Of a DNA stretch of 64,000 nucleotides, positions 1,483-41,426 are shown one piece after another. How positions within the stretch are numbered: position 1 is the first letter of the stretch; every line of letters begins with the position of its first letter. The notes below the pieces were generated by a model. It saw only the letters and a program-made list of their open reading frames with translations, ran no database searches and was not told the origin of the DNA. The position numbers and the translations under genes were made by a program. This DNA is from Lacrimispora saccharolytica (GTDB lineage: Bacteria; Bacillota; Clostridia; Lachnospirales; Lachnospiraceae): the NCBI GenBank assembly GCA_016899975.1, contig JACJJN010000008.1:48345-112344 (forward strand). The letters are read 5' to 3'.

Positions 1483-2387
1483 GTAACGTATTTACACAGA
1501 CAGTGGTATATCTGGCCCTTTTGTTTCTGGGGTACGGATTCAAAAAGGCAGGGATCTTTAAGGTGGAGGATACAAAATTCCTGAAATCGGTGATCCTGTA
1601 CATAACGATGCCCGCGACGGCAGTCAATGGTCTGAAAGATCTGGAACTGCAGACCTCCTTTCTCTGGTGTTTTCTGATCGGATTTGTGACGTGTACCGTC
1701 CTGCTGGCGGTGGGAATGGCCGCTTCCCGAAAGAGTGACGCCGACGGAAAACTGCAGTATCTGTTCAGTTTTAACAGTTTTAATGTTGGCAATTTTGCGA
1801 TCCCGTTTCTGACAGGCCTGATCTCCACCAACGGATTTGCGGCGCTCTGCCTGTTTGATATTGCGGTCGCAATTTTTCTGTATGGTGTGGATTATTCCCT
1901 GGCAGAGAGCAGAAAAGGAAACGGCGGCGGATTTTCCGCGAAGCTTCTGCTGAAAAAGATCTTCTGTTCTCCGGTCACAGATGCTTATCTGATCATGATC
2001 GTGCTGGCGGCGTTGCAGCTGCGTCTCCCGGAACCTGTGCTGAAGCTTGCAAGTGTGGCAGGCAATGCCAATGCATTTCTGGCAATGCTGAGCATCGGCA
2101 TTCTGTTTGAGTGGAATATGGATAAGAAGAACCGGAAAATGCTGGTGAAATTTTTCAGCCTCCGGTATCTGGTGCTGATCCTGCTGTCTGCCGCAGTGGT
2201 ATTTCTGGTACCGTTCCCCCATGATATCCGCCAGGCAATCTGTGTGCTGCTGATGGCTCCGGTGGCAAGTATTGCCCCGCTTCTGACGGAGAACGCAGGC
2301 GGAGACGGCGCGAAAGCGGCGCAGATCAATTCGGTCAGCATTCTGCTGGGGATAGCAATGATGATGATCATGTACGCGGTTGTATAA
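1479..2387 (+). CDS. AEC (auxin efflux carrier) family transporter
   Basis: A 302-residue, strongly hydrophobic protein with about ten predicted membrane segments in the usual two five-helix halves of the AEC/MdcF family. These are secondary transporters for organic acids such as malate or malonate. Supporting segments are LFLGYGFKKAGIF near the N-terminus, FNSFNVGNFAIPF around residue 100, and the C-terminal half with MAPVASIAPLLTENAGGD. The substrate cannot be told from sequence. The gene starts within the trmO stop (ATGA overlap), implying translational coupling. The length is normal for the family. Confidence 0.85.
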   Translation: MSNVFTQTVVYLALLFLGYGFKKAGIFKVEDTKFLKSVILYITMPATAVNGLKDLELQTSFLWCFLIGFVTCTVLLAVGMAASRKSDADGKLQYLFSFNSFNVGNFAIPFLTGLISTNGFAALCLFDIAVAIFLYGVDYSLAESRKGNGGGFSAKLLLKKIFCSPVTDAYLIMIVLAALQLRLPEPVLKLASVAGNANAFLAMLSIGILFEWNMDKKNRKMLVKFFSLRYLVLILLSAAVVFLVPFPHDIRQAICVLLMAPVASIAPLLTENAGGDGAKAAQINSVSILLGIAMMMIMYAVV

Positions 2388-2401
2388 AGGTAAACCTGGA
2401 A

Positions 2402-2454
2402 TTGTAAACTAATAACAAAAACAGGTTGACATTAGAAAGGCTCTGTGATATTCT
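2402..2454 (+). promoter_or_regulatory. bioY promoter overlapped by probable BirA operator
   Basis: TTGACA (2426-2431) and TATTCT (2449-2454) are spaced by exactly 17 bp. Two inverted half-sites, TTGTAAACT (2402-2410) and GGTTGACAT (2424-2432), match the biotin repressor half-site TTGTAAACC/GGTTTACAA, with the right half covering the -35 box. The 13-bp spacer is a little shorter than the 14-16 bp usually quoted for BirA sites. The position directly ahead of the biotin transporter gene supports biotin-dependent repression. Confidence 0.6.
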
Positions 2455-2557
2455 CATGGAAGATATCGCAGGATTTCAGAGGATGTTTGAAAAGTGAAGG
2501 AAGATTCAAACACGCTCCAGGGAAAGGAATCTGCGGAAAAAAGGAGGGTGTCTGAAG

Positions 2558-3127
2558 ATGCGTACATCAACGATGGAAAAGAACAAGAAACTAACAGCGG
2601 CGGATCTTGTATACATAGCAGTGTTTGCCGGAATCATGGCGGTATGTTCCTGGATATCCATTCCGGCAGCCGTGCCGTTTACCATGCAGACCTTTGCGGT
2701 ATTTTTCGCATTTACCGTGCTTGGCGGGAGACGGGGAACCCTGGCGGTCCTGGTCTATATCCTGATGGGAGTCGTCGGACTTCCGGTGTTTGCCGGATTC
2801 CAGGGCGGGATCGGAGCGCTGGCGGGGGCAAGCGGAGGCTATATTATCGGTTTTCTGGGTTCTGCACTGGTGATGTGGGGCATGGAGAAGCTTGCAGGAA
2901 GAAAACCCTGGATGCAGGTTTTGATCATGATTCTGGGGCTGCTGGTCTGCTATGCGTTCGGGACCGCCTGGTTTATGGTTGTTTATATGGCGTCCACAGG
3001 TCCGGTGGGGCTGCTCACCGTACTGGGATGGTGTGTGTTTCCGTTCCTGCTGCCGGATGTGCTGAAGATTCTTCTGGCTTTGGTTCTTGGCAAAAGGATT
3101 GGAAAGTATGCCGCTATCAGAAGATAG
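2558..3127 (+). CDS. bioY: Biotin transporter BioY (ECF S-component)
   Basis: BioY is the biotin-binding membrane subunit of an energy-coupling-factor importer. It works alone or with the shared EcfA1A2T module, which is not in this window. The 189-residue protein has about six hydrophobic segments and the family signatures PFTMQTFAVFFAFTVLGGRRG (near residues 45-65), a YILMGVVGLPVFAGF segment, and the GGIGALAGASGGYIIGF loop. The start at 2558 follows an AGGAGG-type site. A likely BirA operator overlaps the promoter upstream, so the gene should be shut off when biotin is plentiful. Downstream, the GNAT gene follows after 29 bp. Confidence 0.93.
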   Translation: MRTSTMEKNKKLTAADLVYIAVFAGIMAVCSWISIPAAVPFTMQTFAVFFAFTVLGGRRGTLAVLVYILMGVVGLPVFAGFQGGIGALAGASGGYIIGFLGSALVMWGMEKLAGRKPWMQVLIMILGLLVCYAFGTAWFMVVYMASTGPVGLLTVLGWCVFPFLLPDVLKILLALVLGKRIGKYAAIRR

Positions 3128-3156
3128 CCATCATAGGAAAAGAGGAGTGTTGAGGA

Positions 3157-3630
3157 ATGGTAGAGATAAGAAGAGCACAGGAGTGCGATATGAAAGATAT
3201 CAACCGTTTGCTGGTCCAGGTAAATATGGTGCATCATCAGGGCCGTCCGGATCTGTTCCGGGCGGGAAAGAAAAAATACACGGACAAACAGCTGAGGAAA
3301 TTGATCCATGACGATTCCCGGCCGATCTTTGTGGCGGTGGATGAACAGGAACGGGTGCTCGGGTATGCGTTCTGCATCTTTCAGCAGCACCTCGACGACA
3401 ACATCCTGACGGATATCCGGACGCTGTATATCGATGATCTGTGTGTGGACGAGACCATCCGCGGGCAGCATATCGGAAAGTCCCTGTATGAGGCGGTGCT
3501 CGCCTTTGCCAGGGAGAGCGGATGCTACAATGTGACCCTGAATGTCTGGACTTTGAACGAGGGGGCTATGAAGTTTTATGAGAAATGCGGGCTGAAGCCC
3601 CAGAAAGTGGGAATGGAAACGATTCTCTGA
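3157..3630 (+). CDS. GNAT family N-acetyltransferase
   Basis: A 157-residue protein of the GCN5-related acetyltransferase fold. The acetyl-CoA pyrophosphate-binding element appears as VDETIRGQHIGKSLYEAV (about residues 100-117), preceded by the beta strand TLYIDDLCV and followed by NVTLNVWTLNEGAMKFYEKCGL, which is the usual C-terminal half. The substrate cannot be deduced. It lies close behind bioY, probably in the same transcript, and is followed by a clear terminator. Confidence 0.85.
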   Translation: MVEIRRAQECDMKDINRLLVQVNMVHHQGRPDLFRAGKKKYTDKQLRKLIHDDSRPIFVAVDEQERVLGYAFCIFQQHLDDNILTDIRTLYIDDLCVDETIRGQHIGKSLYEAVLAFARESGCYNVTLNVWTLNEGAMKFYEKCGLKPQKVGMETIL

Positions 3631-3647
3631 GAAACATGCGCTGAAAA

Positions 3648-3699
3648 GAGGTTGTGAAAAAACGGATTTACGTTATTTCACAGCCCCTTTTTCTTTTTT
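3648..3699 (+). terminator. Rho-independent terminator after the bioY-GNAT pair
   Basis: GAGGTTGTGAAA (3648-3659) pairs with TTTCACAGCCCC (3676-3687) with one mismatch and one G-U, followed by a long T-rich tract. Confidence 0.85.
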
Positions 3700-3789
3700 G
3701 GAAGTTTAACATTTTATTCATATTTCTGTGTTAGTATGTTTGAAAATCAAAATACGATCGAAGATAAGAGCAGGTCAGGAGGATATGAG

Positions 3790-4473
3790 ATGGTAAAGAT
3801 ATTAGTAGTGGAGGATGATGTCCGGCTGAATCGCCTGGTATGCCGTCTGCTGTCAGATTATGGCTATCAGCCGATCAGATGCGGCAGCGCCGCAGAGGCT
3901 TTTGAAGCGATGGAACATGAACCTTTTGATATGATCATTACAGATGTAATGATGCCTGGAATGGATGGATTTGAATTTGCCGATGCGGTTCGTCAGCAGG
4001 ACAGGGAGGTTCCGATCCTGTTTGTGACGGCGCTGGATGATATGGCGTCAAAGCGGAAAGGATTCCGGATCGGGATCGACGATTATCTGGTGAAGCCGAT
4101 CGAGCTGGATGAACTGCTGCTGCGCGTGGAGGCGCTGCTCCGCAGAGCGGGCATTGCCAGTTCGAAACGCCTGTGTGTGGGAAATCTGGTGATGGACTCG
4201 GAGGAGCGGACCGCTTATGTGGACGAAGAGGAGGTGCCGCTGACCGTCCGTGAATTTGATATTCTTTACAAGCTGCTTTCCTATCCGAAGAAAACATTTA
4301 CCAGGGCACAGCTGATGGATGAATTCTGGGGCTATGAGACAGAATCCGATTCACGAACCGTGGACGTCTATATTACACGGCTGAGGAATAAATTCAAAGC
4401 CTGCACTGCCTTTGAGATTGTGACGGTGCATGGGCTGGGGTATAAGGCGGTACTGCATGAAAATGGAAAGTAA
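3790..4473 (+). CDS. OmpR/PhoB-family response regulator
   Basis: A 227-residue two-domain regulator. The N-terminal receiver domain has the acidic pair Asp9/Asp10, the phosphoacceptor Asp52 in IITDVMMPGMDG, Thr80 and Lys102 in LVKP. The C-terminal winged helix begins near residue 125 and contains VPLTVREFDILYKLL and SRTVDVYITRLRNKF, typical of the PhoB class. The frame is open further upstream, but ATG 3790 sits 9 bp behind a CAGGAGG site and begins exactly at the canonical MVKILVVEDD. The histidine kinase gene overlaps its end by 17 bp. The target genes are unknown; the small membrane gene at 5561 may be part of the same system. Confidence 0.93.
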   Translation: MVKILVVEDDVRLNRLVCRLLSDYGYQPIRCGSAAEAFEAMEHEPFDMIITDVMMPGMDGFEFADAVRQQDREVPILFVTALDDMASKRKGFRIGIDDYLVKPIELDELLLRVEALLRRAGIASSKRLCVGNLVMDSEERTAYVDEEEVPLTVREFDILYKLLSYPKKTFTRAQLMDEFWGYETESDSRTVDVYITRLRNKFKACTAFEIVTVHGLGYKAVLHENGK

Positions 4474-11665: not shown

Positions 11666-11760
11666 GAAATGCCTCCTGTAAAATATGGGTGAATAACTTT
11701 TATTATAGCCTATCAGGAAGAGAAAGACAAGGCGTATCGCCACTAACAGGATGAAAACAC

Positions 11761-11894
11761 GTAACAGTTCAGCCTTGCTGAACCGTTACATGCAAAATCC
11801 ATTGAAAATCGCCGTCGGCGATGGGATTTTGCACTCCTGAATCACGTTCTTACGGTCTGCGCAGTATGTGCGCAGACCTGGGCGGAACTATTAC
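11761..11894 (-). mobile_element. 134-bp MITE, copy A
   Basis: The element runs from GTAACAGTTCAGCC to GGCGGAACTATTAC, which are imperfect terminal inverted repeats. It is flanked by the perfect 8-bp direct repeat GAAAACAC (11753-11760 and 11895-11902), the hallmark of transposition. Inside are three successive hairpins, the middle one with the TGCAAAATCC/GGATTTTGCA stem and the last with GGTCTGCGCA/TGCGCAGACC. The reverse complement of copy B (24340-24473) has the same length and differs at about 8 of 134 positions. There is no coding capacity. GTAA ends with 8-bp duplications resemble IS66-family ends, so mobilisation in trans by such an element is plausible. It lies just upstream of a perfect promoter. 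Confidence 0.88.
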
Positions 11895-11910
11895 GAAAAC
11901 ACATCCGTCA

Positions 11911-11939
11911 TTGACAAGATGAAAACACAGAAGTATAAT
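11911..11939 (+). promoter_or_regulatory. Consensus sigma-A promoter of the cobalamin-type leader
   Basis: A perfect TTGACA (11911-11916), a 17-bp spacer and a perfect TATAAT (11934-11939) lie 9 bp beyond the right target repeat of MITE copy A. Confidence 0.85.
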
Positions 11940-11945
11940 GAATAA

Positions 11946-12217
11946 GGTTCATTCAAAGGGCGGTAGTGTGCATTGCGGGGCAATTGCCGTACCAGAGGAT
12001 GAGCAGAAGGATAATAGAATAAAAAACAGATGCGATGAGGAATGTAAAAGCGGTACAGTAACTCTTAATCATAAGTCCGGTGAAAGTCCGGCACAGATGC
12101 CGTGAGTGGTGGCACAAGTCGGTGAGATGGTCGTATTAATCATGCAGGAAATTCCCAGGTGGCAGTCTGTTTTTTACAATTTTGCAGATACCTGTTCCGG
12201 AAGGAATGGGTTTTTTT
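11946..12217 (+). promoter_or_regulatory. Probable cobalamin riboswitch leader with terminator
   Basis: The leader after the perfect promoter contains AAGTCCGGTGAAAGTCCGG followed by CACAG, then GCCGTGAGTGG (about 12072-12112). This resembles the GGUGAAA-UCCGG-CACAG-CCGC core of cobalamin riboswitches. A diverged B12-box-like AAGTCGGTGAGATGGTC follows at about 12116-12132. A hairpin ACC-TTCC/GGAA-GGT (12189-12210) with seven Ts makes an expression platform. Downstream genes encode a Fe3+/B12-type ABC importer, which fits. The B12 box is weak, so the ligand is not certain. Confidence 0.5.
12189..12217 (+). terminator. Terminator hairpin of the leader
   Basis: ACC..TTCC pairs with GGAA..GGT around a short loop, with a TG/TG internal mismatch, and runs directly into T7. 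Repeat copy R1 begins in this T-tract. Confidence 0.6.
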
Positions 12218-12340
12218 CTTTCATAGGAAGTACTTTCCTATGAAAGAAAAAGGCTCCGCGAGGATCACACTGCGGCGGAGTGGAAGAGGTCGCTTATGCG
12301 ATCCGCCGAAGGCGGAGAATCCTGAAAGCAGGATTCTTTC
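12211..12340 (+). repeat. Five-hairpin post-terminator repeat, copy R1
   Basis: T7 is followed by CTTTCATAGGAA/TTCCTATGAAAG, CTCCGC/GCGGAG, GTCGC/GCGAT, CCGCC/GGCGG and AATCCTG/CAGGATT stems in tandem. It closely matches copies at 29924 and 41421. It sits between the leader terminator and the coding sequence at 12384, so read-through mRNA carries it. Confidence 0.85.
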
Positions 12341-12383
12341 TTAAATTTTGATAACACAGCAGATGCGTCAGATGGAGGAAATC

Positions 12384-13397
12384 ATGAAAGTTGAAAAAAA
12401 CAAGGAGTCCGGGCAGAGAGAAAAACTTCGGAAACTGCAGGAAATTGCTGCGTCTGCCAGAGATATGGAGGAAAACAGTCAGAATGTTTCCGGTATCCTG
12501 TATCAGGAGTATTCTCTGGAGTCGCGAAAGGGCAGGCAGTTTTATGAGAGCCTGGAAGATGAATGCCTTTTGAGGCTGCTGCGGGAAAGGGCGAAGGAAC
12601 TGGATCATTCTCCGTCTCAGAAAGAGGTGTTCTGGGTGTTGAGAGAATACCTTCGGAAAAGGTTCGGAAAGTGGCCCTACGCCCTGGAGGCAGCGGGGTT
12701 AAAGCGCTCTTCCGGTTCCGGCGGCAGTTCCTGGAACCAGATGGAGGAGGAAAGAAGAAGATATCACCGTCTGCTGGGAGAATTGCGCCAGGAGGCGAAG
12801 AAATTATGCCGGATTCCTCATCCCTCCGACGTTCCGGAATTGTGCGCAGAATTGAAAAAATACCAGAAAAACTGGAGCATTGTCGTACAGGATGCCGGTC
12901 TTTCTGGGGAGTTTTTTGAAAAATACGCGGTATATCAGGTGGAAGATCTGGATGAAAGATCCAGAAACTATCTGATGGAAATTCGAAGGAAGGCGGAAGA
13001 GACGGGAAGACCTCCGAGAAAAAGCGAGGTTCCGAGAGAGGTACAGGAAATACTTACGGCAAGCTGTAAAAGCTGGAGAAATGCGCTCTATCAAGTGGGG
13101 CTGGAACCGGTGGTACGGATCCATCCGTTTTCCTCTACTTATATTGATTACCGGAAAACGTCCCGTTCCCGGCAGCATAGCCGGGCTCTTTACGACTGCT
13201 GTTATCTTCTGGTAAATCCCGACGAAAGGACAGTAAGCGATCTGGAGAAGCTTCGGGAGATCCGCGAAAAACTTGGGAGAGATCCTGAAAAAAAGGAAGT
13301 CCCGAAGGAACTGTGGAAACGGCTGCAGAAAGTCTGCGGTTCCTGGACAAATGTGCTGTATCAGTTAAGGCACGGCGGAGGGTGCGGGACCCCGTGA
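12384..13397 (+). CDS. Protein with four homing-endonuclease-associated repeats
   Basis: A 337-residue basic protein without a recognisable nuclease motif. It carries four copies of a roughly 45-residue helical repeat of the kind found beside HNH homing endonucleases and thought to bind DNA. They are near residues 62-105 (SPSQKEVFWVL...FGKWPYALEAAGL), 115-165 (PHPSDVPELC...KNWSIVVQDAGL), 190-235 (RPPRKSEVPREV...KSWRNALYQVGL) and 285-330 (RDPEKKEVPKEL...GSWTNVLYQL). ATG 12384 was chosen because GGAGGA lies 5 bp upstream; in-frame starts exist back to TTG 12348. It lies between the riboswitch-like leader and the ABC importer, an unexpected place. Its role is unknown; a DNA-binding regulator is possible. 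Confidence 0.7.
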   Translation: MKVEKNKESGQREKLRKLQEIAASARDMEENSQNVSGILYQEYSLESRKGRQFYESLEDECLLRLLRERAKELDHSPSQKEVFWVLREYLRKRFGKWPYALEAAGLKRSSGSGGSSWNQMEEERRRYHRLLGELRQEAKKLCRIPHPSDVPELCAELKKYQKNWSIVVQDAGLSGEFFEKYAVYQVEDLDERSRNYLMEIRRKAEETGRPPRKSEVPREVQEILTASCKSWRNALYQVGLEPVVRIHPFSSTYIDYRKTSRSRQHSRALYDCCYLLVNPDERTVSDLEKLREIREKLGRDPEKKEVPKELWKRLQKVCGSWTNVLYQLRHGGGCGTP

Positions 13398-24141: not shown

Positions 24142-24205
24142 TGTAATGGTTCCATTGGCTGAATTGTTACAGATTGACAAAAGCACTGTGAAATTTCTTT
24201 AAAAG

Positions 24206-24291: not shown

Positions 24292-24320
24292 TTGCTTTTT
24301 AGGAAATGCGCCTATATAAT
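24292..24320 (+). promoter_or_regulatory. Promoter of the hydrogenase operon
   Basis: TTGCTT (24292-24297), 17 bp, perfect TATAAT (24315-24320). MITE copy B lies between this promoter and the ribosome site. Confidence 0.65.
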
Positions 24321-24339
24321 AAAAAGAAAGTAAAAGATT

Positions 24340-24473
24340 GTATCAGTTCAGCCCAGGTCTGCGCACATGCTGCGCAGACCGTAAGAACATGATTCAGGAG
24401 TGCAAAATCCCATCGCCGAAGGCGATTTTAAATGGATTTTGCATGTAACGGTTCAGCAGGGCTGAACTGTTAC
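24340..24473 (+). mobile_element. 134-bp MITE, copy B, in the hydrogenase 5' leader
   Basis: The element runs from GTATCAGTTCAGCC to GGCTGAACTGTTAC and is flanked by the perfect 8-bp duplication AAAAGATT (24332-24339 and 24474-24481). It is the reverse complement of copy A (11761-11894), equal in length and about 94% identical. The three hairpins are intact. It sits downstream of a good promoter and ends 32 bp before the first start codon, so its RNA hairpins would be in the mRNA leader. Confidence 0.9.
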
Positions 24474-24505
24474 AAAAGATTTGAAGAAGGAGGCACAGAG
24501 CAACT

Positions 24506-40976: not shown

Positions 40977-41050
40977 CGGGGTATGGCGTAGCTTGGTAGC
41001 GCGCACGGCTGGGGGCCGTGAGGTCGCAGGTTCAAATCCTGTTGCCCCGA
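40977..41050 (+). tRNA. tRNA-Pro (anticodon GGG)
   Basis: The 74-nt cloverleaf folds fully: acceptor CGGGGTA/TGCCCCG with one G-T, D arm GCGT/GCGC, anticodon arm CACGG/CCGTG with loop CTGGGGG (anticodon GGG), variable loop of 5 nt, T arm GCAGG/CCTGT with loop TTCAAAT. The discriminator is A; CCA is not encoded. A TATAAT box at 40958-40963 lies 13 bp upstream. Confidence 0.95.
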
Positions 41051-41078: not shown

Positions 41079-41426
41079 TTGACAGCCGGTGGATAAAATG
41101 ATACTATTTTAGCAAGTCATAACACAAAGCGAAGAAGAGGAGTATTACACCGGATACCGGTTTTCAGAAAGCTGTTGGGTGATGCGAAGCAGCAGAAGGA
41201 TCCGTTGGAACTGACCTTGGAGCAGCTGCCTGAAATCCTGAATGCAGGGAGAGTAAACGCAGACGGAGTCCCACCGTTACAGGGGAAGGATATAAGATTT
41301 CAGGGAAATCCGTATCTGCAGAGTGTACAGCACAGGCTGTGAAAAAAGAGTGGTACCGCGTGAGAATGGTAGTCTTTCGTCTCTTAAATACATTTCGATG
41401 AATGTATGAGAGCGAAGGACTTTTTT
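41079..41426 (+). promoter_or_regulatory. Leucine T-box leader of leuA
   Basis: TTGACA (41079-41084), 17 bp, TACTAT (41102-41107) start a leader of about 480 nt to leuA. GAGGAGTA lies in stem I, a GGTGATGCGAAGC element fits the AG bulge/distal loop region, and the T-box sequence AGAGTGGTACCGCG is at about 41350-41363. The likely specifier codon is CTG (Leu, 41211-41213) in GGAACTGACC. The terminator hairpin (about 41372-41420) ends in T7. Uncharged leucyl-tRNA would permit read-through into leuA. Confidence 0.9.

Follow-up and report, generated by a model that had tools for sequence, protein, structure and literature searches.

In the 64,000-nucleotide stretch of Lacrimispora saccharolytica DNA analysed here (the window; contig JACJJN010000008.1, positions 48,345 to 112,344), two copies of a short element, A and B, were located together with their internal hairpins, their flanking duplications and a probable decayed relative (Table 1). 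The right duplication of copy A ends 8 bp before a perfect consensus promoter (11911-11939, 12/12), which points towards uptake genes (PF01497, PF01032). The spacer of this promoter contains, at 11918-11928, a third GATGAAAACAC, identical to positions 11750-11760, which hold the left duplication of copy A. Downstream of copy A, a conserved leader (12040-12340), also present in the same-genus genome G005, resembles a cobalamin riboswitch by eye; the model RF01482 reached 20 of 50 bits in the G005 orthologue, and no cobalamin riboswitch match was obtained in the window at E ≤ 0.1. Between this leader and the FecCD-type uptake genes lies an open reading frame (12348-13397) with three HNH_repeat stretches, of the kind associated with homing endonucleases. 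Copy B is situated between a TATAAT (24315-24320) and the start codon of a predicted operon encoding an NADH-linked flavoprotein and an [FeFe] hydrogenase. A promoter scan at copy B gave no consensus match, and a promoter is presumed there from similar sequence in relatives. Further along the window, a tRNA gene (40977-41050) is followed by a T-box leader (41123-41387).

Table 1. Features of copies A and B and of a related palindrome in the window
Feature	Position	Strand	Basis or remark
Copy A, 134-bp MITE	11761..11894	+	sequence reading; genome-wide matches
Copy A, left 8-bp target duplication GAAAACAC	11753..11760	+	sequence reading
Copy A, right 8-bp target duplication GAAAACAC	11895..11902	+	sequence reading
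Copy A, hairpin 1 (left terminal repeat and inverted inner copy of the same)	11761..11789	+	
Copy A, hairpin 2 (TGCAAAATC...GATTTTGCA, with inner stem)	11791..11833	+	
Copy A, hairpin 3 (GGTCTGCGCA...TGCGCAGACC)	11854..11878	+	
Copy A, right terminal repeat (minus-strand reading GTAATAGTTCCGCC)	11881..11894	-	
Copy B, inverted 134-bp MITE, directly upstream of the predicted [FeFe]-hydrogenase operon	24340..24473	-	
Copy B, left 8-bp target duplication AAAAGATT	24332..24339	+	
Copy B, right 8-bp target duplication AAAAGATT	24474..24481	+	
Copy B, hairpin 3	24356..24380	-	
Copy B, hairpin 2	24401..24443	-	
Copy B, hairpin 1 (left terminal repeat and inverted inner copy)	24445..24473	-	
Probable decayed 28-bp solo palindrome of the same family	24143..24170	+	flanking 8-mers 5/8 equal

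The original prediction held that A and B are of exactly the same length, lie in opposite orientation and have different but perfect 8-bp duplications. Indeed, both measure 134 bp and align without gaps at 126 of 134 positions (94%), with GAAAACAC duplicated around copy A and AAAAGATT around copy B. The inverted ends that had also been claimed are present (13–14 bp), although they are imperfect in both copies (A ends in ...GGAACTATTAC and B begins with GTATC); perfect terminal inverted repeats occur in other copies, such as L002 and L005. The end sequence is present three times per element, at both termini and in the inner arm of hairpin 1, this arm being a direct repeat of the element's right end. 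Within the window, the 14-base end (with up to three mismatches) was found 14 times, compared with 3.7 expected, and none of 100 shuffles reached 14. No open reading frame of 80 or more amino acids overlaps either copy, so the MITE is both short and gene-less. On folding, both strands of A and B (taken as stretches shifted rightwards by one base) proved far more stable than shuffled sequences, with z values of −5.7 to −8.5.

The genome to which the window belongs (G000) is a draft of 3.25 Mb in 201 contigs. The search of this genome with the 134-bp unit, which had been proposed as a check, revealed many dispersed copies. At E ≤ 0.001 there were 41 matches, a figure that counts A and B, many of them partial and one of them a second match inside the site of another; the query was shifted rightwards by one base relative to the element. 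With one mismatch allowed, the 13-base end has 260 occurrences in the genome and the reversed control pattern has none. For the exact double end GTAACNGTTCAGC-N0-10-GCTGAACNGTTAC there are 38, a number that takes in hairpin 1 of the long copies. To judge from simple ORF calls, the short palindromes are mostly intergenic. At least four other dispersed repeats, from this genome or the genus, were noticed in L254 (1-266, 2648-2813, 4134-4441 and 15247-15385), examples being one of about 260 bp at 79–90% identity and one of 166 bp at 94–98%; the genus looks rich in small repeats.

The 8-bp duplications were surveyed at 96 loci of this genome, some of them overlapping, after removal of duplicates and with the ends paired blind to the flanks; this census is a sample, drawn in part from 100 of the 260 end places. 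Among the 36 long copies, the flanking direct repeats agree at 8/8 positions in 17, at 7/8 in 12, at 6/8 in 3 and at fewer in 4, so that a duplication of at least 7/8 is present at 29 of these sampled copies and absent at 7. (Three of an initial 39 long rows, of 144–146 bp in L197, L025 and L010, were alternative pairings of elements already counted and were dropped.) Short copies were defined as being of 27–30 bp with no long-copy core within 75 bp, a definition under which some truncated remains (L185, L173) were counted as well; repeats of at least 7/8 flank 20 of the 40 (10 perfect and 10 with 7/8) and are absent at the other 20. Such repeats were found at none of 44 inner hairpins of long or truncated copies and in none of 79 pair rows when the next 8 bases outward were compared (0/39 and 0/40). 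Mispaired flanks reached 7/8 in 3 of 1260 combinations for the long copies (6 of 1482 if the three dropped rows are kept) and in 7 of 1560 for the short ones. Set against these controls, the duplications uphold the earlier claim that a non-coding element has been mobile, as do the sites without the element in relatives (see below). Copies lacking 8-bp duplications, which had been named in advance as evidence to the contrary, do exist, but as a minority (7 of 36 long copies below 7/8). The A+T content of the duplications is 66% (49 copies with at least 7/8), and the 17 perfect duplications among the long copies suggest that the family was active fairly recently. Two palindromes, L204 585-641 (57 bp; flanks AAATTCGT/ACGAATTT) and L022 82-110 (flanks CGCAAGAA/TTCTTGCG), have 8-bp flanks that are inverted rather than direct repeats.

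At E ≤ 1e-5, the 134-bp unit was found in 9 of 61 genomes, the own genome included. Within the genus, G001, G003 and G005 have at least 13–15 matches each (14 candidates per genome being scored), and G002, G004 and G006 gave no match to the unit at this threshold. Copies in other genera, the hairpin stems of which differ, are also flanked by 8-bp repeats in the cases listed, which comprise pairs of at least 6/8 and hence give no rate. Nor do the relatives all carry the element at the same loci, as would be expected of an immobile sequence according to the original prediction, which had called for a search for empty sites. Copy B is absent from G001, G003 and G005, which have the same flanking genes; in G005, copy A is likewise absent from between the same genes. 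The decayed copy that G001 has near site A is a different one. The intergenic regions of these relatives have diverged, and the empty sites are clear by gene order, not base by base. In the leaders compared, sister genomes have their own copies, whether solo, truncated or full, at positions that differ, which shows that insertion has been repeated and independent. A further MITE subfamily (74–75% identity) is carried by three unverified fecal scaffolds labelled 'Bacteriophage sp.' (L395, L396 and L397), the duplication being 8/8 exactly at the ends in L395 and 8/8, one base off in the automatic call, in L396; the palindrome pattern had no match in the viral contigs, in which the bare 14-mer matched at least 120 stretches.

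From the GTAA termini and the 8-bp duplications, it had been proposed that the element was mobilised by the IS66 family. Most IS66 loci of other genera, when scanned for the MITE ends, proved to lack them, which directed attention to a divergent single-gene group. Tracing divergent IS66 genes of the family turned up contigs where 44 bp lie between the end of a PF03050-type gene and the element end GGCTGAACTGTTAC. A scan of named genomes then gave 32 loci, 20 of which have both ends, 1.7–1.95 kb apart. These partner elements, found in Sporofaciens musculi, Lachnospiraceae bacterium 3-2 and others, are insertion sequences of about 1.8 kb with a single gene: L139, for example (element 2296-4112), has one open reading frame of 494 aa (2584-4068), and its remaining ones do not exceed 84 aa. 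The criterion of a single gene without separate tnpA and tnpB was taken from the available portion of PMC12898284. The first 18 bases of the MITE are identical to both ends of L139, L144, L157 and L159 (Sporofaciens musculi) and of L143, and in the other partner copies the ends match its first 12–18 bases. A perfect 8-bp duplication flanks 14 of the 20 copies with both ends, namely all six in Sporofaciens musculi WCA-9-b2, five of six in Lachnospiraceae bacterium 3-2, and L142, L146 and L152; as for the six copies without a readable perfect duplication, one lacks its left flank and one, the sixth of Lachnospiraceae bacterium 3-2, adjoins an N gap.

The partner transposase matches PF03050 (DDE_Tnp_IS66) with an E value of 4e-19 and 69.5 bits, compared with a Pfam cut-off of 23.1. 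With the NCBIfam IS66 equivalog NF033517, it obtains 137 of 180 bits and thus falls under the cut-off, which is a naming threshold and not a defining feature; the partner transposase is a divergent IS66 member. It is 28% identical over 468 positions to the transposase of ISGka4, a named IS66-like element with one 1458-nt gene, the ends GTAACTATTCAGCC/GTATCTATTCAGCC and the 8-bp duplication AACTCGTC. By its plan, ISGka4 (from Geobacillus kaustophilus pHTA426) may be placed in the ISBst12 group. To this group also belongs ISDge4 of Deinococcus geothermalis, a single-gene element with the ends GTGACTACTCAGCA/GTAACTGCTCAGCA and a duplication of 8 bp; according to the available portion of PMC12898284, it was caught transposing. 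The L139-type partner IS has the ISBst12-group plan, and it possesses both the GTAA ends and the 8-bp duplication. The comparison with IS66-family ends that had been recommended at the outset thus shows ends shared by the MITE and the partner IS and close to those of ISGka4 and ISDge4. The proposed IS66 mobilisation gains from the existence, in related genera, of IS66-family elements with the same ends (up to 18/18 at both) and 8-bp duplications; the step in trans is one that we infer.

The interior of the MITE has at most 12 bases in common with the partner IS (E 0.22) and 14 with the more distant L079 (E 0.014). Since so little is shared beyond the ends, the MITE is not a simple internally deleted IS. 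At several partner ends (L146, L156), a hairpin such as GTTCAGCC-TTCC-GGCTGAAC resembles hairpin 1. In the mechanism that we propose, an ISBst12-type transposase would recognise the GTAACAGTTCAGCC ends, make 8-bp staggered cuts and insert the MITE in trans; the mobiliser would then have been lost from the lineage or would only have passed through it.

Where, then, is the mobiliser? In the own draft genome, neither a PF03050 IS66 transposase (E ≤ 0.001) nor a relative of the partner transposase (E ≤ 1e-10) was detected; the search for the latter was negative in six same-genus genomes as well. Such a relative is present in 3 of 61 genomes. PF03050 itself occurs in 16 of 61 relatives; those within the genus are G002, G005 (a fragment) and G006, where the IS66 genes or fragments are mostly canonical. 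Among plasmids, relatives of the partner transposase are found in 63 records, all at less than 60% identity. A pattern describing the 3'-end hairpin of the partner IS had no match in the own genome and matched in 2 of 61 genomes, six times in G035 and once, as a relic, in G005. The six in G035 all lie within about 20 bases of a contig end, which indicates that such ends can be detected in drafts whose assembly stops at a repeated IS. The G005 relic (L258; G005:C46:2399-2451) is located in the leader of a typA-like gene, beside an open reading frame resembling an Rpn-type nuclease (both named by eye). In G005 (L075, 640-790 and 1501-1686), a broken IS66-gene fragment lies within about 700 bases of MITE ends. 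Since the searches for such relatives were negative in the own genome and in the six others of the genus, the mobiliser has likely been lost from this lineage or only passed through it.

Conversely, MITE matches were found in 5 of nine IS-bearing genomes, several of them partial, and none was found at E ≤ 0.001 in G426 (Sporofaciens musculi), G428 (Lachnospiraceae bacterium 3-2), G427 or G433. The best-matching IS and the MITE were not seen in one genome, except in G429, where the IS copy L142 (end matches of 18 and 14 bases) is accompanied by the MITE copies L217, L221 and L224 (7/8 or 8/8 duplications). Several IS families besides IS66 make 8-bp duplications, including IS256, ISL3, IS1595 and IS6, and mobilisation by one of these would fit the lack of a detectable IS66 transposase in the own genome. 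However, the identity over up to 18 bases with the ends of an intact-looking IS66-family element, which makes duplications of equal length, renders this highly improbable.

A and B belong to a genuine MITE family, the ends of which are of the IS66/ISBst12 type and the anatomy of which is unusual. The reading that we favour, with a probability of about 86%, is that they are multi-copy, non-coding MITEs which have the ends of a single-gene IS66-family (ISBst12-type) element, are mostly flanked by 8-bp duplications and were likely copied in trans by such a transposase. Short palindromes in high copy number that lie mostly between genes (by simple ORF calls) also recall REP sequences spread by a Y1 (RAYT) transposase; the 28-29-bp forms would then be REPs and the 134-bp forms REP doublets, similar to REPINs. 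To our knowledge, however, REP/RAYT elements make no target duplications, whereas direct 8-bp duplications are present at 29 of 36 long and 20 of 40 short copies, and the ends are identical to those of an IS66-family element. A REP origin is therefore hardly credible.

The original prediction also saw in the three internal hairpins a sign of constraint beyond the ends. An alignment (A1) was made of 41 of 54 candidates from several genera, the ones omitted being L039 (142 bp) and 12 further copies of these subfamilies from the own genome. In these 41 copies, 95.1% of the base-pair cells are paired, and two-sided changes across genera affect 13 of 32 pairs. The covariation score is 0.191 compared with 0.061 in shuffles, none of 500 shuffles reaches 0.191, and sliding the partners abolishes the signal; these values come from a structure derived in part from the alignment used to test it, and from related copies that are not independent. 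When the best 9-bp outer stem of hairpin 2 was sought in each sequence, with G-U pairs allowed and a register that varies, 26 distinct stems were obtained, and 34 of the 41 were fully paired. Conservation extends to several positions beyond the arms, among them an A-rich bulge before AATCG and the TACGG leading into hairpin 3. The three hairpins are thus kept across genera by compensatory changes, and the suspected constraint is borne out, with the proviso that template switching could yield part of it. The hairpins may serve the element itself, for example by binding the transposase or a host factor on the DNA or by making a transcribed copy harmless, and their upkeep may be aided by template-switch correction between the arms.

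Template switching might also account for the covariation without any selection, if during replication one arm were rewritten from the other so as to give two-sided changes in one step. The two palindromes with inverted flanks, L204 (57 bp) and L022:82-110, look as if fold-back copying ran on into the flank, an extension that such copying would give. The conserved positions outside the arms (such as the A-rich bulge and the TACGG) are, however, unexplained by arm correction alone, and we consider covariation without selection possible while leaning against it.

Strong covariation across genera is equally what might be expected of a structured RNA or cis-regulatory element (a leader, terminator or sRNA) kept by the host, its mobility long past, and the location of copy B between TATAAT and a downstream start codon, like that of copy A just upstream of a perfect consensus promoter, could be taken in the same sense. 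Yet A and B adjoin unrelated genes on opposite strands, and at the loci compared the copies of sister species are missing or lie at other places beside the same genes. Moreover, copy A has no Rfam match at E ≤ 1, the sole Rfam match in L057 is a chance-level miRNA outside the element, and there is no terminator-like site near copy A or B. We judge a host-kept RNA or regulatory element to be very unlikely, and retain the reading of A and B as MITEs with ISBst12-type ends.

The 28-29-bp palindromic forms amount to two IS66-type ends placed back to back, and an important question is how they arise. At a diagnostic base, the long copies have C in 18 of 21 inner arms and T in 19 of 21 outer ends, while in four of five 29-bp solos the hairpin-1 loop occurs together with the T of the outer right end (P = 0.010 for the comparison with the 29-bp solos, a small sample of n = 5). 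Recombination between the inner arm and the right end, with loss of hairpins 2 and 3, would be expected to leave just such a junction. One explanation is recombination or slippage between the inner arm of hairpin 1 and the 13-bp direct repeat of this arm at the right end; such an event would remove hairpins 2 and 3 and leave the original duplication in place around a copy of 28-29 bp. To judge from these sequences, the 28-29-bp palindromic copies are probably deletion products, that is, shrunken long copies. Another possibility, which we regard as unlikely, is that the 28-29-bp palindrome transposes by itself and that the 134-bp copies consist of this unit with a captured cargo of three hairpins; if so, no smaller target-duplicating mobile element would be known to us. 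In the leader of a typA-like gene (so named by eye), a solo of the own genome and a full copy of G003 are separate insertions about 8 bp apart. At the site of the L189 solo, G005 has palindromes of its own, and no alignment spans the site in G001 or G003.

These results add to the first observation a partner IS, sites without the element, covariation, and 28-29-bp palindromes flanked by target duplications. They connect a defined transposase family with a hairpin repeat of which some gut Lachnospiraceae have many copies in their genomes; since the exact ends are established and partner elements are at hand, mobilisation in trans by an ISBst12-type enzyme is directly testable. The covarying hairpins suggest that the interior of a MITE can be under structural constraint across genera. 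As to the 28-29-bp palindromes flanked by target duplications, they would represent either a visible route from a transposon to a REP-like repeat or a new lower size limit for a transposable unit.

In the portions available from one open-access library, the literature yielded no IS66- or ISBst12-derived MITE, no Lachnospiraceae MITE with IS66 ends and no instance of the 13-mer; among the titles listed on MITEs in gut Clostridia and on REP sequences in Lachnospiraceae, none was relevant. The available portions of publications on MITEs and IS66, a Paracoccus paper included, describe no IS66-derived MITE, and IS66 is absent from the main text of a MITE review.

The elements of the ISBst12 group resemble the MITE in having ends near GTAAC-N3-TCAGC (with GTGAC at one ISDge4 end and GTATC at one ISGka4 end) and 8-bp duplications. 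They differ from it in that ISGka4, ISDge4 and the Sporofaciens musculi-type IS have a single transposase gene each, whereas the MITE has no gene in its 134 bp and an interior unrelated to the IS interiors compared. The short copies resemble REP/REPIN palindromes (see PMC2817692) in having one hairpin, tens of copies and a mostly intergenic location, but half of the short copies have direct 8-bp duplications (20 of 40 with at least 7/8), and their arms are IS66-type ends. Bacterial MITEs, such as MITEPsy1 and MITEPsy2 (PMC3189936) and those treated in PMC10969869 and PMC2229807, share with the present family, in the sections available, a short non-coding body, inverted ends, a target duplication, several copies and ends shared with an IS. 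Unlike the MITEs in those sections, the family found here combines 8-bp duplications and IS66-type ends with three covarying hairpins, a third, internal copy of the end and 28-29-bp forms.
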